From: a virus
Length of the DNA stretch: 37,086 bases
Direction: 5' to 3' (one strand)
IMG/VR virus record: IMGVR_UViG_3300032182_000533
Coordinates: 1-37,086 of that record
Position numbers and translations under genes: made by a program. The notes beneath the pieces were generated by a model that saw only the letters and a list, made by a program, of their open reading frames with translations, was not told the DNA's origin and searched no databases. Positions 2,451 through 26,400 of the stretch are shown in pieces. Within the stretch, counting starts at the first letter, position 1, and every line of letters starts with the position of its first letter.

Positions 2451-3926
2451 TTACGGAATACCAAATGGATTAGTTTCTGATTGATCTAGTATTTCAGCAC
2501 CCTCAGTTTGTATATCTAAATTATCACCTTGCTTATCTTCCTCGTTTTCTGGAGTACTTAAGGGAGTAAAAGATTGAGAATCTTCTAGATTATCTGTATT
2601 TATTATTCTGACTGGATATCTTGCACCTGACTCTTGTCCAACAAGAATATCCCCCGCAACAAAAGTTCCACTGAGAGATCCTACTTCAAGAATATAAGAC
2701 TTTACATTCCATCTCTTGACTCTTGCAGTTGTACTACTTATTGTTCCTACGATTACTTCATTAAATCTATACGTTCCTATTCCCGCATCAACTGGATCAC
2801 TGATCACCATAGTTGGAGCAGACTGATATCCAGATCCTGCATCTGTTATGTAAATAGCACTGATTGCTCCAGTAGGAGTAAGTCTAACAGTAGCAGCTGC
2901 AGATACAGTTGGATTTCCTCCAACAAATGTAACCGATGGTCTATTGACATATCCAGATCCTGGATTTGTTATTGTTACTATACCAACAACTCCATTAGAC
3001 AATGATGCAATACCAGTTGCACCTCTCCCCCCTCCTCCAGAAATAGAAACTGAAGGAGTAGTATCAATAGTATCTAAAGATGAAGAATCAGTTGGAGTTG
3101 AACTTAAATAACCACATCCAGGATCTATTAAATTAATTTCAGAAACTTTTGATAAATTTGTATTTGGTTCACAAAAATCTGGAAGGTTTTTTTGTAATAT
3201 TGCTGTTCCTATAGCTGTTATGCCACCAGAAGGTGCTTCTGATATGGAAACATCTGGATTTGAAGTATATCCATGACCCATATTTGTCACTTCTATTAAC
3301 CTAATACCACCAAAAGCACAATAACTTGTGACTGCTTCGGCAGTAATTCCAGCTCCAACCATTTGTAATGTCTGGATATATGATTGATCAATTAAGTTAT
3401 CATCAATGTAATCTATTCCAGTATCAAGAACCTCCCCAGACTCTGGTCTATAAAGTTCACATCTAAGTTCATAGACATAGTTCTTTCTGAGTTGATAAAA
3501 TGGTTTTTCATGCTCAACGAACTTAATCTCAAATAATCTATCTCCCAATGGGAACCAAATCAAATCTCCTTCTTTTGGTCTATCGGAAACTTTTATATCT
3601 GGAAGATTTTTAATCAATGGTGTGATATATGTTTCAAATCTTTCTCTAGAAATAACTAAAGTCAAATCATCCATATCTTGGAGACCAAACTTTGATAGTA
3701 TAGTTCCTTGTCCTCCATATCCTTCATAATCACTTACATATGCTTCAATAGGATATGCATTTTCAAATTCCGAATCTACAACTTCTCTAATAATAGTATC
3801 TTCTTTTAAGAAAAATCTTGGTATAAAATATACGTCAACACCATACATCCTCAACTGTTCGTTGACTAAATCCTGAATAAGACCCTGCTCTGATTTGCTG
3901 CCGTTGAGAAAAAATGGATTTAACAT
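2451..3926 (-). CDS. 14: Neck protein gp14 with an inserted Gly-Tyr repeat region
   Basis: Residues 1-190 resemble T4 gp14, a neck protein that with gp13 closes the filled head and accepts the tail. Matching segments are GVDVYFIPR (T4 GVECYYVPR), YEGYGGQG, the EGDLIWFPLGDRLFEIKFVE segment (T4 [20 protein letters not shown]) and PFYQL. T4 gp14 is 256 residues; this protein is 491. The extra length is mostly a glycine-rich insertion at about residues 210-379 with four Gly-x-Gly-Tyr units (MGHGY, PGCGY, PGSGY, AGSGY), followed by a short beta module (GDILVGQESGARYPV) and an acidic Gln/Glu-rich tail. The C-terminus ETNPFGIP recalls the T4 ending SSPFDNDFMD. The start is fixed by AGGA four bases upstream, inside the end of gp13. 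Confidence 0.92.
   Translation of the reverse strand: MLNPFFLNGSKSEQGLIQDLVNEQLRMYGVDVYFIPRFFLKEDTIIREVVDSEFENAYPIEAYVSDYEGYGGQGTILSKFGLQDMDDLTLVISRERFETYITPLIKNLPDIKVSDRPKEGDLIWFPLGDRLFEIKFVEHEKPFYQLRKNYVYELRCELYRPESGEVLDTGIDYIDDNLIDQSYIQTLQMVGAGITAEAVTSYCAFGGIRLIEVTNMGHGYTSNPDVSISEAPSGGITAIGTAILQKNLPDFCEPNTNLSKVSEINLIDPGCGYLSSTPTDSSSLDTIDTTPSVSISGGGGRGATGIASLSNGVVGIVTITNPGSGYVNRPSVTFVGGNPTVSAAATVRLTPTGAISAIYITDAGSGYQSAPTMVISDPVDAGIGTYRFNEVIVGTISSTTARVKRWNVKSYILEVGSLSGTFVAGDILVGQESGARYPVRIINTDNLEDSQSFTPLSTPENEEDKQGDNLDIQTEGAEILDQSETNPFGIP
2790..3300 (-). repeat. Gly-x-Gly-Tyr beta repeats inserted in gp14
   Basis: Within gp14 (about residues 210-379) a unit recurs with the form: short hydrophobic strand, [DN]xGxGY, 4-6 residues, PxVxI, then a Gly/Ala-rich turn. 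Four copies are visible (NMGHGYTSNPDVSIS, DPGCGYLSS, NPGSGYVNRPSVTF, DAGSGYQSAPTMVIS). The same unit occurs in the gp8, 2830-, 2757- and 3649-residue proteins of this window. Confidence 0.8.
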
Positions 3927-3927
3927 A

Positions 3928-4746
3928 TCATCCTATCATGTCTAGTGGTGGAAGTTCATATGTAGAAGACATCTTGTCCATAAGAGTATCTATTTCACGT
4001 TGAGCATCTTCATAAAGAGTTCTTCCGTTAAACTCAAGACCACCCGGAAGTCTAACTCCTTGAAACTTAATCAGATTTTGTCCCCATTGACGCTTTATTA
4101 ATGAAGTCGCATATTGCTTTAAAAAATTATCATTCCAAACTAATGAATAATCTGTGGGATTCATCAACCTATCGCAATCAATAATTAAGTAGTTTCCTGC
4201 AGAAAGTTGATTATAGTCAACATCCAAATATAATCTGCCTTGTCTTTTATTAAAACGAATCTGTTTTTGAGTCGTAAGAAGAAAATCGATATCGGAAAGA
4301 TATGATTTTGTCATTGCATATGTTAAAAGATCTAGAGAACCCCAATGATAAACATCATTTAAAAATAACTGGTATTTAACACTGAACATTCCTGAAGATA
4401 TGGAGTTTTCACCTTCAAACTTAAATATTCTTCTTACACCTAAAACATGGGAAGGTAAAGGAATATAATTTGAGTTTTCATGATAGTCATATGTGCTTTC
4501 TGAATATGTTGATATTCCTACACCAGAAGGCGGTCTCGCTAATCCTCTATCGATATCATCTTGTGTTACTTGGTATTTCAAAAATGTTGAGTATGAACCG
4601 TCATAACATCTTTCATTAAAAAGTTGTAAAGCATCATCTACAAGATCCTCGATCTGCTCCTCAGCAACATTGATTTCAAGAACAGGAGCACCAAGTTTTC
4701 TCAAACAATAATCAATAAATTCTTGTCTTGTAGATGGTTGTGCCAT
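3928..4746 (-). CDS. 13: Neck protein gp13
   Basis: The 272-residue product is very like T4 gp13 (309 residues), the neck protein that binds the portal vertex and, with gp14, completes the head for tail joining. RQEFIDYCLRKLGAPVLEINV at residues 7-27 is nearly the T4 sequence RQEFIDYCLRKIGEPVIQINV. Further matches are EEQIEDLVDDALQLF, SGMFSVKYQLFLNDVYH, RQGRLYLDVDY, KQYATSLIKRQWGQNLIKF and LPGGLEFNGR. It lacks the roughly 40-residue N-terminal extension of T4 gp13. It overlaps no gene but is one base from gp14. A late promoter box lies 24 bases before its start, so it probably leads a 13-14-15-16 transcript. Confidence 0.94.
   Translation of the reverse strand: MAQPSTRQEFIDYCLRKLGAPVLEINVAEEQIEDLVDDALQLFNERCYDGSYSTFLKYQVTQDDIDRGLARPPSGVGISTYSESTYDYHENSNYIPLPSHVLGVRRIFKFEGENSISSGMFSVKYQLFLNDVYHWGSLDLLTYAMTKSYLSDIDFLLTTQKQIRFNKRQGRLYLDVDYNQLSAGNYLIIDCDRLMNPTDYSLVWNDNFLKQYATSLIKRQWGQNLIKFQGVRLPGGLEFNGRTLYEDAQREIDTLMDKMSSTYELPPLDMIG
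3931..3934 (-). promoter_or_regulatory. Shine-Dalgarno site of gp14
   Basis: AGGA on the minus strand, four bases before the gp14 ATG, within the last codons of gp13 (ATG ATA GGA TGA). It is one of only two clear ribosome binding sites in the window and supports the chosen gp14 start. Confidence 0.6.
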
Positions 4747-4769
4747 GTGCTTTTATGGTTCTTATACTA

Positions 4770-5033
4770 CTATTTATTTTGCGACAAAGATCTTAACAAG
4801 TCTTTAATTTCATTTATATCATTTTTTATGTCATTGAGTTCTTCTTCAATAGACTCTGCTTTTTTTCTTTCGGATAGTATTTTTCTAGAATTGATAATGT
4901 AAGATTGATATTCAGAGTTATTCACGTTAATAATAGCTCCTGTTTCTTTCTCTCTTACGAGATTTGAATTTCCCTCAACTTTACTAAAAAGTTCATCATC
5001 ATTGTAGTATTCATCTAAATCATCTGTTTTCAT
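4770..5033 (-). CDS. Small acidic coiled-coil protein, unknown function
   Basis: This 87-residue protein is acidic at its N-terminus (KTDDLDEYYNDDELF). It contains the segment SNLVREKETGAIINVNNSEYQSYI (about residues 23-46), whose NLVR-x-x-x-TGAI-N pattern I associate with small conserved proteins of T4-like cyanophages; that link is recall, not a search. Residues about 52-85 form a heptad-like helix (RKKAESIEEELNDIKNDINEIKDLLRSL), so it may oligomerise. It lies where T4 has wac (fibritin, a long coiled coil) just before gp13, but at 87 residues it is far shorter and shares no visible fibritin features. The start follows an A-rich stretch without a Shine-Dalgarno site. Function is unknown. 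Confidence 0.75.
   Translation of the reverse strand: MKTDDLDEYYNDDELFSKVEGNSNLVREKETGAIINVNNSEYQSYIINSRKILSERKKAESIEEELNDIKNDINEIKDLLRSLSQNK
4771..4778 (-). promoter_or_regulatory. Putative T4-type late promoter upstream of gp13
   Basis: AATAAATA on the minus strand, 24 bases before the gp13 ATG and overlapping the last codons of the 87-residue gene. It fits the late promoter box (TATAAATA, relaxed to NATAAATA in cyanophages) that the gp55/gp33 system recognises. The spacing equals that at gp25. Confidence 0.55.
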
Positions 5034-5042
5034 TTTTTTTTA

Positions 5043-8000
5043 TTATAATGAAGGTTTGAGTGTAGCAATCGCTCTCAACTCTTTTACAAGAGGTGGTTCT
5101 GATTGATTTTTAGAAGCAAATATAATTTTGATTGCAAATCCTGTAAACTCTGGAAGATTATCAATAGTATATTCATAATCGGAATATTGTACATTTGAGT
5201 TTATGCTGACTTTATCGTCAGATGATCCATCATTTTTAGATGCATCAATAACTCTTTTTATTCCATTTGAATCTGTTTTGTAATTCAGATATCCTGGGAA
5301 TGGTTCAAAGTTTGTTTCTCCATCTGCTTCATCTTCTCTAAGTATTTTATAAAGAACTCTAATATCATTATTTTCAGTTCTAGAAGATTTTAAGAATAAC
5401 TTAATAGAGTTTGCTGGGAGTTTTAAGAGAATGGGTTTTGATATATAAACTGCTTCATGTTTTTCCTCCCCACCCCGTATATATTCAACGTCAGCAAAGG
5501 TTGAAGATTCTCCTACTCCTGCGGGAGCGTTAATTAGGTTAGATGTCAATATTGCTCCAGTTGTTATATCATCGATTATAGGAGAAACTCTACTGTCTTC
5601 TGTATTTAACTGGAACTCCATTGTTAAACTTCTATTTCCAGGAAAATCTTGCAAGTATTTTTCTTCATTAACTCTAGAAGCAAGCAATCTTGGATTATCA
5701 AAAAGAACTGGTTCATCTAAAGACATTTCAACATATCCAGCATCTTCAAATGATGATTCATTTCCATCTATACTTGTTCCAGTAATAGTTCTGAGTTTTG
5801 CTTGAATAGAAGTCTCTGAAGGTGTTATTGTTGCAAAGTTTGGAGTTATAATATCAAAGTTAACATTAGTTGAAACAAAAGTTCCAGCATCTCCCAACCC
5901 TTCATTAGTATTAAATACTAAATCAGAAGTAGCCGCTCTGTTTTTACCAATAGAATTTCCGTCATCATCGGTTGATCCAACTTCAATTGGAATATAGAAA
6001 GAGTTAAACTCTAATGGATGATAAGTTTCATCTAAAGAAGATAGTGAATGAATCTTATTAATTCTTCTAAGAGAAATACCATTAAACTGATATTTGTAAA
6101 CAGGGGTTCCGGCATCATAAGGTTGAGCCTCTCCGACAACTGCTCTTGTTATAGTTGGTGTTCCAGCGCCCAAACTTGTTGCTGAATAAGTTGTATATCC
6201 AACAACTTCATTTCCAATAATAATATAACCAGGGTTGTCTCCGTCAACTTGAATACCTTCAAAGGTTTCAAATCCAGCAGTGCTATCTAAGTTAATAACA
6301 CTCGTCTCAGTATTCGACAAATCAGTGCTTAAAACACTATTAGGTTCATCATCTTCTGGTCTTATATTACTAATCCTTACATAATTTTGCGTGGAATGCA
6401 TTCCGTGATTAATGGCTTCAATTTTCATATGTAACCCATCAAATTTTGGATCATTAAATATGCTTTCTGCTCTTGGGGGTTGATTAGTAATTGAGTTTAT
6501 TCCAACATAAGTGGATATACCACCGTTATTTGGGTCAGAGAAAAATACTATTCTACCAGTCTGATATTCTGCGCTATCACCTGCATTTGGACCCTTTCTA
6601 ACATTTTCAATGATTAAGGAATTTTTTAGTTTGACATTATCAACAGTTACTTGACCGCCAAATCCAACATCTTGTCCTATTGAAGGAATAGATAAAGCAT
6701 CTCCTTCAATATATCCAAAACCACCATTAATGATTGAAACATCGGATATAACTCCACCGGAAACAGTAATATTTGCTTTTGCACCTTGACCATCACCAGT
6801 TAATGTGATAAGATCATAACCGTTTCCATCGTTGTCAAATGTTCCATCGGTATATCCAGTTCCAACATTTGAAATAGTAACTCCAAGACCAGTAGTTATA
6901 CTTCCTCCTATAGAAACAAGTTTTCCTTGTGCATTATCTTCCTGTAAAATAGTGTAACCTTCTAATAAATCTGATCTTATGAAAGCATTATTATTTAATT
7001 TAATGACACTTCTCTTATCCAAAGTTGAAAGTTGATTTGGACCCAAAACAGACACTTTTTCATTCTTTAAACTTAATATAGGATTGTAATATCTTACAGT
7101 TCCACTGTCTACAAAATCAGCTCTGTAAAGTTTATACTTAAGATCCTCAAGTTGGGTTGGTGTCCAAGTTGATCCATTTTGTGACTTAAATAGACTTCCC
7201 AACGTTGGTTGAGATCCTACTTTAATATTGGTAAGAATGTCATTTTCTCCCAATCTTGAAATAAAGACTCTATAGTTTGAGCTATTTGACAGTAGTACTA
7301 CTGCATATTCTGCTGTAGTTTCACTTGCTATCGGAGCACCTCTAACTTCTTGTCCCTGTGGTCCAGCCAAGTAAACTGGAGAAGCAAATGTAAATCTTGT
7401 TGGAACGCTACCATCCACGGAAAGATTTATTTCATCTGGTGTAAGAGTTACTTCTGAGAATGGGAAAACTGTAGTTGTGGGAACACCATTTTCCATTGTG
7501 CGAAGCTGTAATGTAACTGGTATTCCAGATACATCTTTAGTCTCAAAATAAACATCTACTCCTGTTAAGAAAATACCAGTTTCATCTTTTACAAAGAAAG
7601 ATTGTGCTAGTGGATCCCTAACTTCCCATCTTCTTACGATTCTTCTACGTCTTCTACGAATACGTGTTCTTGTAACAGCAGTAGTATTAGTTCTTACATT
7701 TGTAACTGTTGTGGTGTTTATATTTCTAGCAGGTCTAATTCTAATGTTTCTTGTTGTAAGAATATTTCTTACAGTAACATTAGTTGTAGAGGTAGAAGTA
7801 AACTCCTCTTCTGCAGAACTTTCACTATCAACATTATCATCTCCTGATGCTGCTTCGGATAAAGATGGAACATCAATCAAAGTAAAAGTATTCTCTCCGT
7901 TATTCCATTTTGGATTTCCGGAAACTTTTGCATCTGGAACAAACAATGCACCGATTAATGAACCAGAGTTATCTGAAATTAATCTAACATTAGTAACTCT

Positions 8001-11000
8001 AGCAACTGCTCCAGAAACTTTTCCTATAAGTCTCATATTAACAGATACTTCACCATAGTAATCAGTTTCAGAAATTTGAGCAAGAGATTTAGTATCAACG
8101 TTTAAATAATCAGAAGCCTCAGTATAATCTTCGGGTGGAGCAGATTGGCGATATGGAATTGTAGTGAATACTTCTTCCGGTGCATTTACTAATCCCGATT
8201 TGTGATTTGGTTTACATAGTCTAAATCTAATCTTTTTACTCACAAACCCTGGATCACTTTCAACAAGCTCTCCAATCTGGAACTTACCTTGAATCATCTC
8301 GATTTCAAGAAGTTTTGGAACAACATAAGATTTAACATCTATTCCTTCAAAGAAAGAATAAAATCTTGTTCTCGGACGTAATCCTTTAGCTTCAAACTCT
8401 ATATTCCTAGATCTCAAGAATCTAGTTGGTTCTGTGAAGTTGCTTTCACTCTCCTCTACAGTAGTGTCTACTGTTATCTCTGGTGGTATTGTTGTTGTTA
8501 CTGTATTTGAAGTGGTTCTTACGGAAGTAGAAACAGTTCTTGATGTTCTCAATACATCTCTTCTAGCACCAGGACTAAACTCTAAGAAAACTGCTCTATT
8601 TCTTCCCCTACTTTGCACCTGTGTAATATAATTATTCGCAACATCTCTAGGAAGAACACTTCTAAGCCAATTAATATCTGCTCTAGTAAGTCTTTGTCTT
8701 ATTGCTCTAAAACGAACGACTTGTCTACCGTTTGTTCTTCTTATTTGTGCGGATAAGAATCTAGATCTTCTTCGGAATCTACGCCACCAAAAAGCTCTTC
8801 TACCTCTTCTTCTCCATCTCCTCCAAAGAGATCTTCTCCACCAACCCCTTCTTGCCCAAATCCACCTTCTTCTAAATATTCCTCTTTGTGTTACTACACG
8901 ATTACGGAATACAACTCTATTTCTTGTTACATTATTTACTCTAACTATATTTTCATCCGGTTCTCTAGGAAGAGTTTCTGTATTAGTTGCAAATGATCTA
9001 TTTACTTCTTCTCTCTCTTCAATCCAACTGTCAGAAGCGGGACTAAGCTGAATACTTCCTGTCCAATACTTTACAAGGAATGGAGTTACACTTTCAGTTC
9101 TTGTTGCGTAGGGTTGATTAAAATATTCTACATTTTCATAGTTTAAACTAATAAGATCTCCAGTTTTTTTAACATTCTCAGAACCAAGATTTTCTACAAA
9201 AGAATGATCTTTTGTGGGATCAAATTCTGTGGTTACTCCTGAAATAACTTCAGATCCCAACTGCATGTCTATGAATGTAGTATAATGAGTTGGTCTTAAA
9301 ACATTTTGCTCATCATCTATCGCTATCTTATAATTTGGATCATCCTCATCATGAAGGTCTGTATTACTAAAAGTATCAACAAAAAATCCACACTTTAATC
9401 TTTCGATTCCAGTTTCAGCGTCAATAAGTTTTAAGTTTTCAGTTTTAGTTTCTGCTGCATTAAGAATGGTAAACTCTTCAAGTTTTGTTATTCTATCATC
9501 AAGAGATGCAATGTCTTGCATCGTATATGTTTTATGAGTTTCAATGTCAACTTCAATGGATCTAACATCGAATACATATGGAGGTAAATTGATTGTTCCA
9601 ATAAGAAGAGAGTTATCTGGTTCTATTGGTTCTTTTGGATCTAAAGATGGTTCACCTTCGAGTACAGCAAATTCTCCATTAGGTTTTAAAACAATTTTAT
9701 CTATTCTACCGACATAATATTTGTAACAAACTTCTAGATTTTCTTCAGGTGCTAAAATATATTGAGAAGATTGACCTTTCGCTGAAAAATTTCTCTGTCC
9801 ATATTCAAATGGTGATTTTGTTAGATTATTTACATTGTAAGGACTCACTCTTGGTCTTATGTCAACATAATCAGTAAGTCTAATATCTTGGAATGAAGCA
9901 ATGTCATGCTTATAGTTTTCGTTTGGATAACTATTAACAGTATAAAACTCTCCGGTGTCTGTGGATTTTACCGAATAATTTTGAAATACTATTTTTAATT
10001 TTCTTTTTGGCGTTTCTGCACCATTTGATCTGATTATTCTAGAATAATCGTAGTAACCAGATCTTTGACCGTCATCAAACGAGTAGTTTTGCGTAATATT
10101 TTTATCACCAATAGAAATAGAATTGATTATAACTTGTGAGTTTGATTGTTTTCCTAATACAACTTCACCCTTTTCAAATACTCTTTGATTTACATAAACA
10201 AATTCAAGAATATCAGTATTTGTTTTTTTAACTAATACTGCAGTTGCTTTTGAATTCTGACCTTGAATCAACTCCCCTTCCAAGTAACCTGCATTTGTAT
10301 CTCCTATTAACTGAATATTAGGAAGCACTGCATCTGAAGTTGTACTTGATTCAAAAACACCAATAACTCTTACTACGTCGGGAACATTTAAGGAGATTGT
10401 CTTGTCCTGAACTCTAGTTCCATATGGCCTCCTATAAGTAAGTCCATCGTCTAAAGTTCCTTCACCAGTTCCTGATGATTTACGAGTAGAACCAGATATG
10501 TTAATAACAGAAGAGGAATTAAAAGTTTTTGTCTTAGAGTTTGGTTTTACATTTTTAACCGTTGCTATTACATCTGCTATTCCGTTTCCACTTTGAGGAC
10601 CATTCTGAAGATCTACAAAAATAGCTTTTTTACCTGAGTTTTCAATTCTAAATCTATCAAATCTTATAGTTTCTTTTTTTCCATCTACATATGTAATAAT
10701 GTATCTATCTTCATCAAAAGATGCAAATGTTATGTCTTCTTCTGTTGGATCAATTTCAATAGTTAACTCATTACTAATAACATCAGCTTCTTTAAATAAT
10801 CTTCTCTGATATATTTGATTATTTTCAAAATCAATTTCGGAAAGAACAGTATTATTAAACTTTGTTAATAAAGTCTCATCATCAAGAGAAGTATATACCG
10901 AGTTTGAGATTTTAGAAATATTTGTAATTATATCATTTTGTGTTGGATTGTTCACATCTAAGTATGCACTTCCATTAGCAAATCCAGGGACCGAAGATAT

Positions 11001-13535
11001 TCCAACGACTTCAAACGATTTTCCATTTGGATTTATACTTACAACTTTATTGTAGATTGGATCTAAAGATCCATCTATATTTTCTGGATATCTAGGACCT
11101 AAAATAGTATTCGTATATGTTATAATATCTCCAACTTTTAATCCTGTAGTTATATCTGTTGGTACTGAAGCGGATATTGTAGTTATTCCATTTGAGTTAA
11201 GATCGGGAGTAATATTAAATAAAGTTCCAGCAGGAGCCAAGAAAGATTTTCTATCCAGAATAACATCACCATTAAATGTGGAGATACCAATCTTTTCTGA
11301 GAATACTGACTTAACATCAGATAAGTCATATTCAATAACTTCTTTTATCAACCTTCCATTTTCAATGCCGTTTATAGAAACTTGTTCTCCCCTTAAAAAT
11401 TGACCATTTACTTCATATAACTTTACTTCATCGAGAACTGTTACATGTTCACCACCAACAGCGGAAATAACCCCTTTAAAGTTATCATCAGCTATTAATG
11501 TAGTTCCATCACTGTCAAGTAAACTAAAACTATTTGTATCAAAAACTTGATCTACTGTAAAAGACCTATTGAAATCATTGTTGTTAGTGTCTCTTATTAC
11601 AATTTGTTCACCTGCTTCGAGTCCATGTGCAGTTGAAAACACAGTAGCTGCAGTAGAAACTTGTGTAACAGTTCCTAAATCATCTATTTGATAACCGCCA
11701 AATGCATCTTCTACTGCTCCAACAACATCTGGTTGAGAACTTAATGTAATTTCAAATTCACCATAAGTTGTAATGCCTGCATTTGCTACTGTATATTTTC
11801 CTCCAGTTGGAAAATCTATTTCTGAGTAACCAGTTCCAGTTATAAAGATTTCGTCACCATTATCAATACCGTTATCAGCGGCAGACCCTAATGGACCAAG
11901 TCCAATTGTTGCAACACCGCTTACATTGTTACCCAATATTGCAAACTGTAATAAAATAGTGCTGATTCCTACAGCACCACCATTAAACTGAATTGTTTGT
12001 ATATCTGTTACTTCCGAAAATGTATTATAAACATGTCCACTTGCGGAACTTTTTTTTCCATCTATAAAAGATGGTCTTTCTACAACAATAGGTTTGGCAA
12101 ATTTTAAATCTACAAAAGTTTGAGTATCAAATAATCTTAAGTGCATACGACTTAAATCATCTTGATACTCACTTTCCGGAACATAATCATAAACTCTTGC
12201 TAAACCAATTGTAGTTCCTGAGGCGACGTGAGCGTCGTCTCCAATCCTGTCACTCATCAAACTAACAGTAGCATCTGTTGCTAATCCTACAGACGCAGAC
12301 CCAAATGTATTATTTAAAATATATAACGATCCTGCGTTAAAAGGAACTACTTCTTTTGTACAAGTATCAGAAGCTCGTGGTTTTGATGCATCTATTAATC
12401 TAGATGTGGTTGTTTCTACAGAAAATCCTTCAATATATGCTTTACCTGGACCTATTTGGTAAACTAATCTATCTTCCGATGGAGTATTTCCTGCAACCGT
12501 TGTTTGATCATTAAAAAATACTCCATCATTTAAGAAGCAATCATTAAGACTATCTTTAACATTAAGACTGAATGATTTTACGAAAAAGTCTCCACTTGTC
12601 TCTGCTATTGCTTTAGACGTTTCCGTTTTTGCTGTGTTTATTCTTTTTACATCTTCTGTGTTATTATCTGGGAATAGGGGTATTCCATCCACTACTCTCA
12701 TCAACTCGATAAAACTATTATTCTCATTAATATCTAAATCTTTTTTAGATAATAATAACTCTAGTTTTAATCTATCTGCTCCAGGTGCGGTAAAGTTTGA
12801 AAAGTTTCTAGCATTATCATATAAACTTTCATCCTCATCTGAAGTTACTATTCTTTCAATAATATCAAATCCAACTTTATAAGAAGGATTAGTGTCATAT
12901 TGAGATAATATTATTGTTTGTGTAGAAAAACTAGCAAAAATACCTCTAGTATAACAAACACCTTCAGTAATCGAAATAGCAGATCCCTTCCCTGCTGAGT
13001 TTACGGGTATGGTATTACATAATCCTTGATTTGCTTGAATAACAAATTTATTATTTTCTCCGTATGTTAAAGTGGTTGTTGATACTAAAGTTTCACCATC
13101 TTGGAATCTTTTTGTAGTTAAATCTTCTCCACCACTTTCAATGTATTTTACATATAAAGTATAGTTATTTCTTTCCGATTCAATATTAGTAATCAGATCA
13201 AAAACCTCTGCAGTTACACCACTAGTTAATCCTTTTAAAATTTTTCCTTTGATAGATTCAAAATACAGCGATACTGGAAGACCATTAAAACTTTGTTCTA
13301 TTTCAACAGAATATATTGGATTATCATAAACAAAAGATCCTGGAATGACAAGATCTCCCTCTTTAAAAAACTTGCTTCCAAACTGCTCAATCTGATTCTG
13401 CAATATTGATTGCGAAGTTGTTAACTCCCTTGCCTGAACAGGATATCCAGGTTTGAAAAGAACCCTATAATAATCTTTATCCTTATCAAAGTCGTCAAAG
13501 TATGGAGATACGTTAAAATTAGTTTCCTGTGGCAT
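5043..13535 (-). CDS. Giant DUF4815-type baseplate-associated virion protein (2830 aa)
   Basis: The N-terminus (NVSPYFDDFDKDKDYYRVLF, GYPVQARELTTSQSILQNQIE) matches the DUF4815 family of phage structural proteins. Other familiar segments: TYTMQDIASLDDRITKLEEF (about residue 1335), a Pro/Trp segment (PFLVKYWTGSIQLSPASDSW, about 1480-1500), RNIEFEAKGLRPRTRFYSFF (about 1710-1730), DPLAQSFFV with GIFLTGVDVYFETKD (about 1974-2000), and GSLFKSQNGSTWTPTQLEDL (about 2112-2131). Between these lie an Arg/Trp tract (1555-1593), a second Arg run (1956-1970), Gly-Tyr repeats (about 2215-2285) and beta-rich spacers. The gene occupies the place of T4 genes 9-12, so it probably forms peripheral baseplate or fibre-attachment structure; that is inference. 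Homologues I recall are usually about half this length. No signal peptide or membrane segment is seen. Confidence 0.85.
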   Translation of the reverse strand: MPQETNFNVSPYFDDFDKDKDYYRVLFKPGYPVQARELTTSQSILQNQIEQFGSKFFKEGDLVIPGSFVYDNPIYSVEIEQSFNGLPVSLYFESIKGKILKGLTSGVTAEVFDLITNIESERNNYTLYVKYIESGGEDLTTKRFQDGETLVSTTTLTYGENNKFVIQANQGLCNTIPVNSAGKGSAISITEGVCYTRGIFASFSTQTIILSQYDTNPSYKVGFDIIERIVTSDEDESLYDNARNFSNFTAPGADRLKLELLLSKKDLDINENNSFIELMRVVDGIPLFPDNNTEDVKRINTAKTETSKAIAETSGDFFVKSFSLNVKDSLNDCFLNDGVFFNDQTTVAGNTPSEDRLVYQIGPGKAYIEGFSVETTTSRLIDASKPRASDTCTKEVVPFNAGSLYILNNTFGSASVGLATDATVSLMSDRIGDDAHVASGTTIGLARVYDYVPESEYQDDLSRMHLRLFDTQTFVDLKFAKPIVVERPSFIDGKKSSASGHVYNTFSEVTDIQTIQFNGGAVGISTILLQFAILGNNVSGVATIGLGPLGSAADNGIDNGDEIFITGTGYSEIDFPTGGKYTVANAGITTYGEFEITLSSQPDVVGAVEDAFGGYQIDDLGTVTQVSTAATVFSTAHGLEAGEQIVIRDTNNNDFNRSFTVDQVFDTNSFSLLDSDGTTLIADDNFKGVISAVGGEHVTVLDEVKLYEVNGQFLRGEQVSINGIENGRLIKEVIEYDLSDVKSVFSEKIGISTFNGDVILDRKSFLAPAGTLFNITPDLNSNGITTISASVPTDITTGLKVGDIITYTNTILGPRYPENIDGSLDPIYNKVVSINPNGKSFEVVGISSVPGFANGSAYLDVNNPTQNDIITNISKISNSVYTSLDDETLLTKFNNTVLSEIDFENNQIYQRRLFKEADVISNELTIEIDPTEEDITFASFDEDRYIITYVDGKKETIRFDRFRIENSGKKAIFVDLQNGPQSGNGIADVIATVKNVKPNSKTKTFNSSSVINISGSTRKSSGTGEGTLDDGLTYRRPYGTRVQDKTISLNVPDVVRVIGVFESSTTSDAVLPNIQLIGDTNAGYLEGELIQGQNSKATAVLVKKTNTDILEFVYVNQRVFEKGEVVLGKQSNSQVIINSISIGDKNITQNYSFDDGQRSGYYDYSRIIRSNGAETPKRKLKIVFQNYSVKSTDTGEFYTVNSYPNENYKHDIASFQDIRLTDYVDIRPRVSPYNVNNLTKSPFEYGQRNFSAKGQSSQYILAPEENLEVCYKYYVGRIDKIVLKPNGEFAVLEGEPSLDPKEPIEPDNSLLIGTINLPPYVFDVRSIEVDIETHKTYTMQDIASLDDRITKLEEFTILNAAETKTENLKLIDAETGIERLKCGFFVDTFSNTDLHDEDDPNYKIAIDDEQNVLRPTHYTTFIDMQLGSEVISGVTTEFDPTKDHSFVENLGSENVKKTGDLISLNYENVEYFNQPYATRTESVTPFLVKYWTGSIQLSPASDSWIEEREEVNRSFATNTETLPREPDENIVRVNNVTRNRVVFRNRVVTQRGIFRRRWIWARRGWWRRSLWRRWRRRGRRAFWWRRFRRRSRFLSAQIRRTNGRQVVRFRAIRQRLTRADINWLRSVLPRDVANNYITQVQSRGRNRAVFLEFSPGARRDVLRTSRTVSTSVRTTSNTVTTTIPPEITVDTTVEESESNFTEPTRFLRSRNIEFEAKGLRPRTRFYSFFEGIDVKSYVVPKLLEIEMIQGKFQIGELVESDPGFVSKKIRFRLCKPNHKSGLVNAPEEVFTTIPYRQSAPPEDYTEASDYLNVDTKSLAQISETDYYGEVSVNMRLIGKVSGAVARVTNVRLISDNSGSLIGALFVPDAKVSGNPKWNNGENTFTLIDVPSLSEAASGDDNVDSESSAEEEFTSTSTTNVTVRNILTTRNIRIRPARNINTTTVTNVRTNTTAVTRTRIRRRRRRIVRRWEVRDPLAQSFFVKDETGIFLTGVDVYFETKDVSGIPVTLQLRTMENGVPTTTVFPFSEVTLTPDEINLSVDGSVPTRFTFASPVYLAGPQGQEVRGAPIASETTAEYAVVLLSNSSNYRVFISRLGENDILTNIKVGSQPTLGSLFKSQNGSTWTPTQLEDLKYKLYRADFVDSGTVRYYNPILSLKNEKVSVLGPNQLSTLDKRSVIKLNNNAFIRSDLLEGYTILQEDNAQGKLVSIGGSITTGLGVTISNVGTGYTDGTFDNDGNGYDLITLTGDGQGAKANITVSGGVISDVSIINGGFGYIEGDALSIPSIGQDVGFGGQVTVDNVKLKNSLIIENVRKGPNAGDSAEYQTGRIVFFSDPNNGGISTYVGINSITNQPPRAESIFNDPKFDGLHMKIEAINHGMHSTQNYVRISNIRPEDDEPNSVLSTDLSNTETSVINLDSTAGFETFEGIQVDGDNPGYIIIGNEVVGYTTYSATSLGAGTPTITRAVVGEAQPYDAGTPVYKYQFNGISLRRINKIHSLSSLDETYHPLEFNSFYIPIEVGSTDDDGNSIGKNRAATSDLVFNTNEGLGDAGTFVSTNVNFDIITPNFATITPSETSIQAKLRTITGTSIDGNESSFEDAGYVEMSLDEPVLFDNPRLLASRVNEEKYLQDFPGNRSLTMEFQLNTEDSRVSPIIDDITTGAILTSNLINAPAGVGESSTFADVEYIRGGEEKHEAVYISKPILLKLPANSIKLFLKSSRTENNDIRVLYKILREDEADGETNFEPFPGYLNYKTDSNGIKRVIDASKNDGSSDDKVSINSNVQYSDYEYTIDNLPEFTGFAIKIIFASKNQSEPPLVKELRAIATLKPSL
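7626..7670 (-). other. Second Arg-rich run (six consecutive Arg) before the DPLAQSFFV motif
   Basis: Residues 1956-1970 of the 2830-residue protein read RTRIRRRRRRIVRRW. The arginines use both CGT and AGA codons, so this is not a simple trinucleotide expansion. The run leads into the conserved DPLAQSFFV segment. Confidence 0.85.
8757..8873 (-). other. Arg/Trp tract in the 2830-residue protein
   Basis: Residues 1555-1593 contain 20 Arg and 8 Trp in 39 positions (for example ARRGWWRRSLWRRWRRRGRR). It is flanked by more ordinary but still Arg-rich sequence (QIRRTNGRQVVRFRAIRQRL downstream). The reading frame is open throughout, with AGA, AGG, CGT and CGA codons. Confidence 0.9.
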
Positions 13536-15186: not shown

Positions 15187-15194
15187 TATTTATG
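15187..15194 (-). promoter_or_regulatory. Putative late promoter (distal) upstream of gp8
   Basis: CATAAATA on the minus strand, 41 bases before the gp8 ATG and overlapping the stop of the preceding gene. It is either a tandem late promoter with the box at 15165-15172 or a chance match in AT-rich DNA. Confidence 0.4.
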
Positions 15195-18100
15195 AGTTAG
15201 GGGTATACCCCTCAGATTTTAATGGATTTGTTCTAATTACTTTTGCTGTGGTTGTTATTCCTGGATTATTTTCATTAACAGTAGATCCATAGTCATCATA
15301 TAGTTCAAATGTTTTTCTAGTGGTTCTCTTGTAGTTAAATATTCTTCCCCAAGAATAATCTCCAAAATATCCATTGTAAGTATATCCAAACCCAACATTT
15401 CCATCAACTTCTCCAGCTGGTCCTCCACTTGGAATATCTATTTGGTTCCAACTTTCAACAGGGACAGTAACTTGTAAAACTTCAGTTCTGCCACTTCCAA
15501 CATTTAAACTGTATACTTCAGTTCTAGCAATACTAACTGATGAGACTTGATAGACACAATCTAAAAAGCTTGTTCCTATAAAATGATTTTGACCATTGTA
15601 TATATTCAATGATGTTATCCCATATCCAGTTAATCCAAGATTAGAGTTGTTTACACGGAAATAATCTCCTCTCTGCAGGGTACTCAGAACTTTTGGATCT
15701 GAAACTTGTATATTTCTTAAATAAGAATCATTTTCTATATAAAGTTCAAAAACAATACTATTTTCAAAAAGATCTGGAGTTGGATTTTTAAAGATATATG
15801 AAATTCCTGATCTATCATCAGATCCAGATATTTCACTTCCAGGAGCACCAACTATTATCACTTTACCAGTATCACTTATCTTGCATGATCTTCCAAAATC
15901 TGCATTAACTTCAATTGAGTTCGATCCCGATAACTTCTTAACTAACTTATGGTTCTTTCCAGTTCTCTTATACACATATGTTGCACCACAATCATTAAAA
16001 CCAAGAGCCGGATCATCTTTGGATCCAACAATTACTGTTCTACCATTACCTGAAATACTAACACTAGTATCAAGTGTTTGATCATCTAGCACTATAGTTT
16101 GATTAAGAATCCATTTTAATTTTACTTTATTAAAATCATAAATGTAAGCATATTGAGATCCAGCAAATCCTCCCTCAGAAATTACCATAGTTGTTCCTTG
16201 GAGTGAAATATCAACAGAATAACCAAATCCAAGACCTCTTACTAATGGCTCTTCAATTATAAATGTTTCCGTATATAATCCACTAGTAGCATTTTTTGAA
16301 TAAACATATACTTTATTATCTTGATATGATCCCACACATAATGTTTTACCAAACTCATCAAAAGAAACAGAACACCCAAATTTAGATCCAACAATCGCTT
16401 CAGAACCAGTAAATCTTTGTAATCTTAAGTATGTTCCTACACCAACAACTTCTCTTTCAAAAAGATATACATATCCTTCATTTTCTGACAATGCACCTGC
16501 AGATATTACCTTTCCATTTGTAGTTATATCAATAGAGTCTGCTAATACAGACGTTTCATTAACTATAACAGTAAATCCTATTCCAGATCTAGCATCAAAT
16601 GCATTTAATTGAGTGAAAGTATCTCCTGATCTTTCATAGACATGTAATACACCACCATTAGTAACACCTATTTCATCACTGGGAGCACCAACAGCGACAA
16701 TGGTTCCATCACCACTCATTCCAACCGATCCTCCATATGAATCTGTAGTATCTCCATCCGAAACTAATTGACTTAAAGTTGCAATTCCAGTAATCGTGTC
16801 AGTGTCGTAGTCATAGTCATAAACGTAAGCAAGTCCAGTGTTTCCTGACCCAATAAACTCATCAAAAGGAGCGCCAACTACAAAAGATGATCCAGTTTTA
16901 TTCATCGCAACAGAAAATCCAAAGTTATCTGCTGAGTCTGAAGCATATACTCCAGTTACGAGACCAACCTGTGTTATTGGTTCTGGAACTGCTCCTGTCG
17001 TCCCTATTCCTGTCAATACGCCAAAATCTCCATCATAAATTACATCTTCTATTCTCTCATACTTTGTTTTTGGAGGAGATATAAACACATTTGGAGCAAC
17101 GTCTGTATATCCATATCCTGGATTTGTCACAGTTATGCTAGTAACTCTTCCATCAGTTAAAGTTGCTTCAGCTTGTGCTCTTTGATTTGATGTTGTTCCT
17201 ATTCCAGTAAAGTTTGGATTTGATATTGAAACATCTGGAGTTTCTATGTAATTAAATCCAGGATAATCGATATTCACCGAAGCAACTCTAAGATTGTTGG
17301 ATAAAGTAGAAGTAGCACTAGCTGCTATTGCTACTCTTTCTTCAATAATAAAAACATCTCTTTGTGGTTCTTTATTTACTCCAACATCTTCATATTCATC
17401 GTTGCTATCAAAGAAAGTTCTAACATTGTCTAAGTAAATATCATTTTCAGTGCTTCCTATACCAACAGAACGCAATAAAGTTGTTTTTGGATAAATTTCG
17501 GGTTCATAAGGTTTTCTTGACTTTCCAACTACATTACCATCAATAATTTTGTCTACAAGTTGCTTACACCAAGTAACTGGTCTTTGTAACGTTTCATCTA
17601 AAGTTACTCCTGGTGTAGAGTACGTATTAGTTTCTAAAATATCAGTTGCAGTAATATCGGTTACAGTTCTAGGATCTTGCTGTAAAGAAATATCTTGACT
17701 ATTTACTGTAACGATATCACCAATTTTTATAGTTTCTAAAATATCTACAAATTGAGTATCAACTTCGGTTGTTCCAAAATAAAATACTATTACACATTTA
17801 TCTCCTTCATTAGGTGGCTCTACAAATGTTAATATACTTCCACCCTCAAACTTATATGCTTGATTTGGGACTTGGTATATATCATTTATAAACACTATTA
17901 AGTTATATTCTAACTCTAGTGGAGATCCAGGACGTGATCTTAAAGTAGTTTGTATTCCTCTTAAAAGTATCGGGAAATCTACTCTAGATCCGTTAAACAA
18001 TCTACTAATATCGTCAAATACTACTAAGTCTCCAAAAACTAAACCAGCAAATGAATCAGTAAATGTTTGATCAATCAAGACCTGAAACTCTTCAAATGTA

Positions 18101-21100
18101 TTTCCGGTAGTTACATCGTATGAATAAACTACACCAGTTGTTCCAATGCCAACATCATTGTAAGAATCAAACTGAGCGCCGACAAGTAAGTTATTGCCAT
18201 CACCGGATAAAGAAACAGAAGTTCCATAATTTGCATTAAGATTATTGGCATATACACCAGTTTTTATTCCAACATTTACATAATCAAGACCAAAATAGTT
18301 AGATGTTCTTCTTTCGTACAAATATACTACACCACTAGAATCCGGAGAACCTGGTTGTTCATCATCAATAGCACCAACAGCAATAATCCGCCCATCGTCA
18401 CTTATAGAAATAGATTCTCCAAATCTATCGCCAGTTTCTTCCGAGTATAACCCCTTCAAAACTTGAACTAGGTAAAAATTATTTCCATTTATTTTTTCAA
18501 AAACATATACTAATCCAGTTGTGGGAAGTCCAAGACCTGATTTATCATCTACTGCTCCAATAGCAATTATTTTTCCATTATTACTAACATCCACACTATA
18601 TCCAAATTTATCTCCAATTTTTAAGGTCGTTAATTTTGGAGATGTAATTATTCCAACTTGATTTATTGTCCCTAAATCTTTTTCGTAAACATAAACAAGA
18701 CCGAAATTATCATTTGGATCTGTAGTATCTTCATCAAATTGAGCACCAACAGCAATATAAGCTCCTTCTGGACTTATAGCAACTGAAGTTCCAAAATTAT
18801 CACTTGGGTCTACAGCAAGAGATCCCTCAATAATTCCTATTTGAATAAATTGAATCGGAGGTCCATCATCTCTCTCGTAAACATATAATAATCCAGAGTT
18901 TGTTGCATTTAAAGGTGCTTCATCTCCAATTGCTCCTACAAGTATTACATTACCATCTCTTGACATATCCACAGACCAACCAAAGCGATCTCCAGATCCG
19001 GAATAAAATCCACTTAATATTCCAACAGTATTAAATCCTACTGGAGGACCATCATCTCTATCATACAAGTAAACTTGACCAGATTGTATACCTACAGTAG
19101 GGTTCTCATCAAATGGAGCACCTACTACTATTTTTGATCCATCACCACTAATAGCGATAGAGAACCCGAAGTTATCATCTTGATTAGATGCGTAAGATCC
19201 AGTAATAATTCCAACTTCATTAAATGAATTTCCTACTCTGTCAAATGCATATACTATTCCAGAAGAACTTTCTGATCCGTCGATATTATCATAAGGTGCT
19301 CCAACAATAATTCTGGTTCCATCGGTATTATTATCAACTTTAAAACCAAACCTGTCGTTAATAGTTGTAGATAATGATCCTGTGAAAATTCCTATTGCAT
19401 TAGATACACCAGTAACTTGGAAAGTTGCAAATGTTGGTATTCCGGTTGGTCCACCGACAGGAACAGTCAAGATCTCACCTTGTCCATAAGAATAACCAGA
19501 TCTTGTTAACTCAAACTGTTCTATTTTTCCATCATTTCCAACAATTAAATCACCAATAGCGTAAGATCCAATTCCTTGAGGTGAATCATTAGAATAGATG
19601 AGATTTATATTATTGTATGATAAAGGACTATCAATATTTAAGTAAAAATCATCATATCTTATAATTTCTACTCTATCCTCTTGAAGTATATTTTCAGTAG
19701 TAATATTTTCCGAAAGATTTAAAGAAAACTCACCTACTTCTAAAATATTATATAATTTTTTACTGAAAATATAGTCCGGGAACCTTACGAAATCAGTATA
19801 TGTATTAATTCCAGATGTATCTGATATTTCAACAATACTTTGTCCAGTAAGGGCAGTTTCTCTTGCGTTTATATTTTTAATTACATTGTATTGTGTAAAT
19901 CCTATTCCAGTGTTTGTTATAACAGGTTCTTTTACTTTACCGTCATATATTGTAGAGAATCCTATTAATACTGATTGTTCTCCTTGTGTTACATTTCTAA
20001 CTTCCCCACCACCAAGATAAGTATGCGGTCTTACAGTTTTTCCGGTATTTAAAATAAATGTGCTATCGGAAAGTTTTTCAATTACTTCAAACTCAAATCC
20101 AAATCTTCCAGATGGTAGTAAAATAGTTGCAAGGACAAAATCACCAGACGATCCATTTATAATATTTACTGGAGAAGGAACAGAATTTTCATCAACATTT
20201 ATTGTAAATCCTTCCGTAGAACCGTTATATGAAACTGGAGTGTCAATAACAGTATAGTTAAATCCATCTAACTCCGTTCCGGTATTTCTTATTAAGACTA
20301 AATCACCGATATTAAGTTCAGTTTCTTCATCACCTACATTAGTAAATGTAACTATCCCTGAGGTGTACCTAGTTTGACCTGTAGAGGATTTTACTGCCTG
20401 TGTGATAGCACTATCGAAAGTATGAGGATAAACGTCTCCAGGTTGACTATAACCAACGTATACGACTATCTTATCGTTATCCGGTACGTCTAAAACTTCT
20501 ATAAGTCTATTATATGCATAATCGCCTTCTCTTGGATATGAGGATGGATCTGGACCAAGAGTACATGTAAAAGATAATCCTTCTTCTTCTAAAAATACAA
20601 AATCTCCAGTAACAACTTTAATAGGATATGGTGTTTCGGTGTTAACGCCAACAAAACTGTGCAGTCCAGTGGATCCATTACCATCCCCAGCATTAAACTC
20701 AAATGTATTTCCGGTAACATTACTTATTGTGAGCAATGTGTCATATGCTGGATCCGGATCACCATCGCCAGCAACTGGTCTCGGATAATACGTTACACCA
20801 GAACCTTCAGTACAACTAAATCCAAGAGATTCGGGTGCTAATAATATTTTATCTCCATTTGTAAGTCCTGTAGTGTCTAAAACAAAAATAGTAGTGAGAC
20901 CAGCAGAAGTTCCATTTGGAGTATATTGAGCATCAGTAACGGAATACGCTAATCCCGCTTGTAATTCATGATCGGATGCAAATGTTATCGTCGAAATACC
21001 GCTTGCCGCATCATATGTAGCATCAATAACTTCCGGTAAAATGCCTAAAGTTGATGCATTTACTCTCTCAAAGGTATGAACAGAGTCATTTTCTCCTGCT

Positions 21101-23463: not shown

Positions 23464-23482
23464 TTATCTTGTTTTATTTGTT

Positions 23483-26400
23483 TTAGAAACGACCAACGTT
23501 TATTTGGAATCCACGTATTTCTACAGTTGTTAAGGGTGCTGGAACAAACTCTAAGTTTGTGTTTGATCCCACCAAAGATGTCCTAAAAGATCCTATACCT
23601 GACTCTCCAAATACATTAGATGGTGCTGGTATAGTAAGAGTTCCAAATTCAGAAATATATGAGTTAATTTGATCATTTATAATCTGTATCTCACTAACTC
23701 TATATTCTCTATTTATTGGTCTATTTGTATTGATACCAGTGAAACCAAGAATAGTTTCCTCATCATTTGTTATATCATTTATGAATAATGCAAATGGTTG
23801 AGTGCCCTCAAACTTCCATAAGTCTGCACCTCCAGCTAAATCTGCAGCAGTTCCACTTACATTTGTACCCCAAGCATTAAATCCATTATCACCATCTCTA
23901 GAGACTTGTGTAGGAGCTTGTAGCGTTCCTCCAACTAATACATGTGTTTCGCCTATCTGCCATGCGGCACCATCCCAATATGAAACTACTATAGTAGTGT
24001 CTCCATATGGAGCAGCTATTTGATAATCTGATAATGTATTACCCCAAGAATAGGTATCAGTAATATAATCTTGTAGTATACCTTGAATACAATCACTACC
24101 CGATCCATCAGATCTTTGTAATGCTACTACTGGTTCGGTGCTGTAAGCACCAGCAGTCGATATTCCTAAAATTGGATTTCCATCAAAGTTTCCATAAGCA
24201 GTAGCACGTCTTTCCGTACTGGGAGATGCTGCTGAATAAACATAATACTTATAGCTTGTTGACCCTATCCCGGTTACAGAAGGTGCTATTACAGAGTTAT
24301 CATTTGATCCTGGTCCTTGAGTTGTCATTACGACAGGTTGATCCGATTCAAAATAAACCCATCCATCTCTTACCGAAGAAGTTAGTATACCTGCGGTATA
24401 CTTATCAAGCGACAATGTATCTGAAGATATTCCAAGAATTCCATTTGGATCTTCATCATATTGATTAATAACAGCATCCTCAAATGGAGCATAAACGTAG
24501 TATGTAGAAATTCCAGATGGATCTCCTCTATCTTCAACATACACACCAAATGTTGTTCCTGCATAGGAAACTGGAGCAGTTTTCCAATGTGCTCCTTGTT
24601 CTAAGAAATGAACTGCTTTAGTTGCATAATATCTAAATCCACTAGTAAATCCAACTGATCCCCTTTCAGGTTGATTTCCTGTAGTAAGAATAACTTCTTT
24701 GTAACCAAGGGTATTAATACCAACGATTTCAGTTTCAGGATAAATTGCGGAATAGTTCACCGTAGCATCATCAAATGCATACCAATCAGATATTCCATGA
24801 TCTCTGTCACCATAACTTATTGGAATTGGTGATCCTGTTTGTATTCCAGTAACATAAGGAACTATATAAGAGCACTTATATTGAGTCGTGTAATTAGTTA
24901 CTTGTATTGGTTCTGGTATCTCAGTTCCTATTCCAGACGCTTGGAATGATTGAACATTTCCCGTTTCGTAAGATAATGATCCGGTAACAGTTTTTTCGGT
25001 TCCTGCAATAGATACAGTTATTGTTTTTATATCATAATCATCAGTTAACTCTTCATATGGTGTTGCTATAATATCAGTTTGACCATCAGGAAGAACATTT
25101 ACACTATAAGAAACTATACCAGTTACTGCTTCATTAGACCCACCAGAAGTAGTTAATTCTCCATATTCAATAATTTCTGCGTTTCCATAATCATCTTTAA
25201 TAACAGTTATTTCATTTACTTGATAATAATTTGTTGTTGCAGATCCAGTTTGAACTATAATTTTAGATGCGGCATAAGTAGCACCAATTCCTATTATTGT
25301 ATTACCAACTCCCGCGAAAGAACCACTCGTAAGAACCCCGACCTGATTGTATATTCTAGCAATATCACCAAACTCCAAATCTTCAGTATCTTCTGGATCG
25401 TCTGTCATTTCTAAAATAATATAGTCAATCAAGAAGTTATTAATATCGGCTTTTTCTGGGAAAAATACTATATTTTGCTGACTACCAATGATTTCGGCAT
25501 CAAAAAATGCAAGATCATAGTTTGTTTCTACTCTTCCATACCTGTTAGTGAAAATACTAGGATCTTCTACATCATCATCACTGTTATGCACAGAAACCAA
25601 AATACTTGTTTGCTTATCAGTTGAAAATCTTCTATCTTGCACAAAGAAGAAAAACTTTCTAGTTCTGATGTCAAGATCGGATCTTGATACAATAGAAAAT
25701 GGTGTTTCTCTTGGTAAAGCATTAAAGTTTTTACTAATGTCATCAATATTCAGTACTCTATTTCCTCTAGACTCAATATAATCTTGAAGTATCACATTTC
25801 CAAATATTAACTCATTTGATTTTATTGGGTTTAAAGAAAAAGTAGTTTCCCTAACAAGATCAAAGTCATAATAACAGTTCATACTAACTTCAGATATAAT
25901 ATCTCCTATACCAAAAGAAATACCAGTGTCTTGTGATGTGGATATTCCACTGTATTGAATAGGCAAAGATTCGACTTCAAGTTCAGAAAATCTTTTAAAT
26001 CCTGCCGTATGGTTTAATGATCCAACAGCATCATCCCATATTCCAATAGGAACCTTAGACTTTAATGAGTACGAAAAATATTGATAGTAGTCACTATCAT
26101 TGGTTCTCTGTAGATCTTGATTTAATTTTCCTGTGTCAGAATTCCATCCTTTATTAACAACAGATGTACTTCCGGTTTTATAACCAGCATCAAATTCTAA
26201 CTTAGTGAGTAAGTTTGCTTTTGTTTTTGATGTTTGACCGATTATTTGGTCTCCTTCACCAAAAATAATTCTCTCAGCAATTTTTATATAGTCATTAGAG
26301 TTGTCCCATTGTTCGACAGTTCCAACTGAAGTCCCTGAACGGGTAACTAATTCTTCATCAATAATAAAATCATTTTTTTGCAGTTCTACTTCATAAGTTG

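Follow-up and report, generated by a model that had tools for sequence, protein, structure and literature searches.

In a 37,086-nucleotide stretch of viral DNA (IMG/VR record IMGVR_UViG_3300032182_000533, positions 1 to 37,086; hereafter the window), a tract dominated by arginine and tryptophan in a predicted baseplate protein and a second Arg-rich run of the same protein behaved as one electrostatic unit in evolution. The two distant segments share a charge-tuned surface, which is partly balanced by acidic segments of the protein. The protein itself is in a known family, and with the inserted domain bearing an Arg/Trp surface it is a new variant. The following features were delineated.

5043..13535, minus strand: DUF4815 (PF16075 / phrog_358) baseplate-region protein of 2830 aa that bears the tract, identified by profile matches and gene order.
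8757..8873, minus strand: Arg/Trp tract RRRWIWARRGWWRRSLWRRWRRRGRRAFWWRRFRRRSRF, aa 1555-1593 of ORF 13535..5043, in-frame translation.
8466..9008, minus strand: region 1, aa 1510-1690, net charge +35.
8568..8882, minus strand: inserted alpha/beta domain, aa about 1552-1656, from alignment A7 and an AF2 model of the homologue L029.

The 2830-aa protein matched the DUF4815 (PF16075) profile (E 2.8e-48; 165 bits, cut-off 30) and phrog_358 (E 0). DUF4815 proteins were present in more than 1,500 phage records, and neither Pfam nor PHROGs gives the family a functional name. The gene was placed between gp8 and gp13 in a T4-like baseplate wedge cluster with the order gp25-gp6-gp7-gp8-DUF4815 protein-small ORF-gp13-gp14-gp15, which was the same in phage B23, and its neighbours matched baseplate wedge, head-closure, sheath-stabiliser and small terminase PHROGs. 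This place is comparable to that of T4 gp10, which lies between gp8 and gp13 in the T4 gene order. When the PDB was searched by profile (E ≤ 0.01), no T4 protein came up; the sole match was the DUF4815 protein of Staphylococcus phage phi812 (PDB 9euf, 9eui, 9euj; profile E 8.7e-70; Foldseek E 1.2e-14), the only solved DUF4815 relative in the profile and Foldseek searches. The N-terminal, helix and DPLAQSF-domain blocks of the two proteins were homologous, and by this homology to a baseplate protein the window protein is probably a virion baseplate component. Unlike the window protein, the phi812 protein has 1152 aa and contains neither the inserted domain nor Arg/Trp tracts. The region from W1504 to R1708 is an insertion relative to phi812, in which residues about 624-677 match about 170 residues of the window protein. 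A literature search for a paper on the structure of DUF4815 found none.

The nearest isolate homologue was gp260 (QGT54874.1; 51%) of Synechococcus phage B23, a Kyanoviridae phage. It shares the gene order and the inserted domain, but has no Arg/Trp tract, and the net charge of its region 1 is −4 as opposed to +35 in the window. A further homologue, L037 (52% identical around the tract), is located on a 258-kb contig on which a gene for a photosystem reaction centre was present, and this supports cyanobacteria as the predicted hosts of the group.

Translated in frame, the 39 residues of 8757-8873 comprised 20 Arg and 8 Trp, exactly as counted in the original prediction, and no Lys, Asp or Glu. 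With 28 of the 39 residues being Arg or Trp, these two amino acids dominate the tract, and aa 1555-1593 was the top Arg+Trp window across the whole protein. Given R at 5.5% and W at 0.5% in the protein as a whole, the binomial chance that a 39-residue window has such an Arg content was approximately 1e-15, and that for such a Trp content 2e-11. The motifs WWRR, RRW and FWWRRF were present. Lys was absent from the entire region 1 in the window, L013 and L014. The Arg codons (15 AGA, 3 AGG, 1 CGT and 1 CGA) were used roughly according to the gene-wide preference (AGA 125/155). No tandem repeat was found in the tract, so a simple repeat expansion, against which the mixed codons had been taken to argue, was rejected.

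Weaker Arg/Trp tracts occurred at the equivalent position in four viral contigs, which were 82% (L013), 76% (L014) and 69% (L017/L036) identical to the window over aa 1340-2000. Region 1 held 46 Arg in the window, 26 in L013, 37 in L014 and 24 in L017/L036; Trp numbered 9 in the window and 8 in L013, L014 and L017/L036. The tract is lineage-specific, since the sister group L018/L099 (the next relatives) and B23 lacked it. A tblastn search of 50,697 phage records with aa 1510-1690 of the window gave no match at E ≤ 0.1, and a tblastn-type search with a homologue's version of the inserted region found B23 alone. When viral-contig DNA was scanned for similar Arg/Trp patterns, the matches listed were almost only short open frames. 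The sole long ORF with a comparable window among the matches listed (L238) was the L013 sequence itself, so that none of the other long viral ORFs among them had a comparable tract.

Within the 55 tract codons, the sister pair L096/L097 differed by 13 synonymous and 3 nonsynonymous changes (pN/pS 0.06), and the tract of this pair is, as judged from these counts, under strong purifying selection. Between more distant members, the pN/pS of the tract was higher (window-L013 0.25/0.45, window-L014 0.41/0.54). Of 78 comparisons at conserved Arg positions, 22 showed a change of codon. The tract is a real, selected coding sequence and a feature at the level of amino acids.

The anchors bordering the tract region were conserved, up to W1504 on one side and from R1708 (RSRNIEF) on the other. 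The tract itself had been described as lying between otherwise conserved segments, but it sits where the protein is least conserved and rich in indels. There, a compact inserted domain of about 105 residues was recognized, of which the tract forms the N-terminal part and the C-terminal half is conserved in the B23-like group. This domain was the fastest-evolving part of the surrounding protein segment, and charge was most labile there. In the AF2 model of L029 (domain core pLDDT about 80-90), a helix was followed by three to four strands, a pair of helices and one more strand; the alignment puts the tract in place of the initial helix (from the invariant W1558) and of the first strands. The tract is therefore predicted to be part of a folded domain, occupying its first helix and part of its sheet, and not the simple loop that had been suggested, although its own predicted structure is of low confidence. 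A single-chain AF2 model of aa 1340-2180 was of moderate quality (mean pLDDT 66), with block means of 34-57 in the tract, 32-43 around the second Arg run and 35-42 in acidic segment b (see below). The inserted domain had no significant match in Pfam, PDB or BFVD, and a known domain or fold was rejected on these grounds. An amphipathic helix was also rejected, as the hydrophobic moment of the tract at 100 degrees was below that of 98% of shuffles. What stood of the original prediction was a real, non-repeat feature shared by close homologues; the loop between conserved segments was not borne out, and homologues outside one lineage were without the tract.

Four further segments of the protein were delineated.

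7623..7667, minus strand: second Arg-rich run TRIRRRRRRIVRRWE, aa 1957-1971, directly before the conserved DPLAQSF motif.
7659..7820, minus strand: predicted long beta hairpin leading into the second Arg run, aa 1906-1959, AF2, moderate to low confidence.
9546..9668, minus strand: acidic segment a, aa 1290-1330, charge anticorrelated with that of regions 1 and 2.
9276..9398, minus strand: acidic segment b NTDLHDEDDPNYKIAIDDE, aa 1380-1420, charge anticorrelated with that of regions 1 and 2.

In a set of 78 homologues, region 1 (aa 1510-1690) and region 2 (aa 1900-1973) had correlated net charges (independent-contrast r = 0.69, n = 77; 0 of 10,000 sign flips as extreme), also without the window clade (r = 0.63, n = 72). 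The charge of the two regions showed no relation to that of the rest of the segment. When 435 pairs of 40-residue windows were compared, 1560-1599 and 1940-1979 formed the strongest pair (r = 0.66; background 0.03 ± 0.19). The summed charge of regions 1 and 2 was negatively correlated with that of 1380-1419 (r = −0.61; family-wise p 0.0002, or 0.005 without the window clade) and 1290-1329 (r = −0.55; family-wise p 0.0014, or 0.018 without the window clade). When the strongly basic sequences and L011 were all removed, the acidic signal became weaker (family-wise p 0.03-0.07). The regions were chosen after the data had been seen, a concern that the window-pair and family-wise controls reduce but do not remove.

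Both regions were basic in at least three separate lineages (the window clade, L027/L050 and L066), and the neighbours of L027/L050 and of L066 were not basic in both. L027/L050 (match 3001-5040), an independent relative, carried a basic Arg/Lys/His/Cys/Trp stretch RRWPKRICFRKKRSRHNHNRKRRIWCHRR in the inserted region and an Arg/Pro-rich second run. L066 (match 3001-4737), from a group with a shorter region 1, had the Arg/Thr-rich sequences RTRTRTRVDSRRIGRTTTRGPRRSRGR and SSRTRQRARTTFRDRTTVQRRW in the two regions.

The inserted domain accordingly had its surface charge tuned jointly with other protein segments, and this surface became strongly basic in at least three lineages. Since the charge of the domain evolved in step with other parts of the protein, a tuned sticky surface for baseplate packing or host touch is suggested. 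The covariation favours packing between proteins no less than the contact with membrane, lipopolysaccharide or DNA that had been envisaged. This singles out definite residues for inspection in a baseplate structure and offers a testable idea on baseplate cohesion or cell contact.

We tentatively hypothesize, at slightly less than even chances, that the tract acts as an electrostatic latch in which the Arg/Trp face packs against acidic surfaces in the assembled baseplate. The tract turns one face of the inserted domain strongly basic and aromatic, and the two Arg regions would lie side by side. In the outer baseplate, they could then be joined by salt bridges and Arg-Trp stacking to acidic surfaces on their own subunit or on a neighbouring one, which would keep the inserted domain in place before contraction, and the excess positive charge may meet the anionic outer membrane after the baseplate opens. 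The acidic change was small compared with the gain of about +45 in regions 1 and 2; a further anionic partner is therefore likely, with most of the charge meeting something else, and the outer membrane is the obvious candidate. Several points speak against a latch, this imbalance among them. The proximity of the segments is conjectural: the models cover single chains and are poor in the tract, around the second Arg run and in acidic segment b. A shared response to the environment might also account for the covariation, and the acidic signal weakens without the strongly basic sequences and L011. Judged from the protein sequences, the tract may form a charge-tuned surface packed against acidic protein surfaces and possibly exposed to the host envelope later; direct lipopolysaccharide or membrane binding is putative.

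Alternatively, the Arg/Trp surface might be exposed at the baseplate rim and serve as a host-envelope anchor, binding lipid A or core phosphates and the outer-membrane interface during adsorption or after opening. We regard this as somewhat unlikely. The WWRR, RRW and FWWRRF composition resembles that of Arg/Trp-rich antimicrobial peptides, the rapid evolution and labile charge of the inserted domain and the gene position between gp8 and gp13 are in line with an anchor, and Arg stands where relatives have neutral polar residues, a pattern that fits surface positions. In addition, no acidic partner tract of matching strength was found in the neighbouring genes, and gp8 showed no clear change between basic and non-basic relatives. 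However, an anchor gives no reason to expect that charge covaries with the protein's own acidic segments, the tract is predicted to lie within a folded domain, and it has no amphipathic-helix periodicity. If the tract did bind the envelope, this would be a new kind of baseplate-membrane contact.

Indolicidin, tritrpticin and peptides of the RRWWRF type are Arg/Trp-rich antimicrobial peptides, which the tract resembles in composition and motifs. Unlike them, it is not a short free peptide but is internal to the 2830-aa ORF, within a predicted folded domain of a putative virion protein; it might conceivably be released by processing. It is unlikely, though conceivable, that the DUF4815 protein of a contractile phage baseplate displays an antimicrobial-peptide-like multivalent Arg/Trp surface, held by the protein's own acidic segments before contraction and then released to grip or perturb the cyanobacterial outer membrane.

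Near-neutral drift, by which a single lineage would gather Arg, encoded by the preferred codon AGA, on a surface that tolerates it and has no specific partner, is improbable. It would fit a lineage-specific and very variable region, the predominance of the common codon AGA and the raised pN/pS between distant members. Against it stand the strong purifying selection in L096/L097, the charge covariation on the tree, the basic character of both regions in three or more lineages, the enrichment of Trp as well as Arg, and the absence of Lys from region 1 of the window, L013 and L014.

A nucleic-acid-binding tract, for example for DNA contact in ejection or packaging, is very improbable: Arg richness alone argues for it, while the gene context is that of a peripheral baseplate wedge and no relative of a nucleic-acid-binding fold was found. 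There is almost no chance that the tract is an artefact of frame or assembly, with an acidic Gly-rich stretch being misread. In favour of it, the +1 frame stays open over 49 codons of the tract and is Glu/Gly-rich, and most WWRR-like DNA among the matches listed in the pattern scan lay in short open frames, many evidently out-of-frame Gly-rich sequence. But AGA and TGG codons automatically keep the +1 frame open, both flanks continue in frame and can be aligned, the same reading was given by four independent contigs, and substitutions relative to L013 (10/11/17 by codon position) favoured the third position of frame 0; with the pN/pS of 0.06, the frame error that had been considered as a way to refute the tract was ruled out. 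A diversity-generating retroelement was rejected, as six related and perhaps fragmentary contigs contained no reverse transcriptase (RVT_1), and the window contained no second copy of the tract.

Other features of the window were also noted. The 87-aa small ORF adjoining the DUF4815 gene (4770-5033) matched phrog_473, a virion structural protein. The gp7-like baseplate wedge initiator (15190-34432) was split into two huge ORFs of 3649 and 2757 aa, which matched successive parts of one family (phrog_2885), and the second also bore FG-GAP repeats; it was split likewise in B23, with shorter ORFs. A minus-strand ORF truncated at the window end (1-957) contained a Cys-rich acidic stretch GACGECGHRECVCEKGDVEKWEDSEEAHEDLEESD, and at the equivalent place B23 encoded gp266, an unannotated protein.
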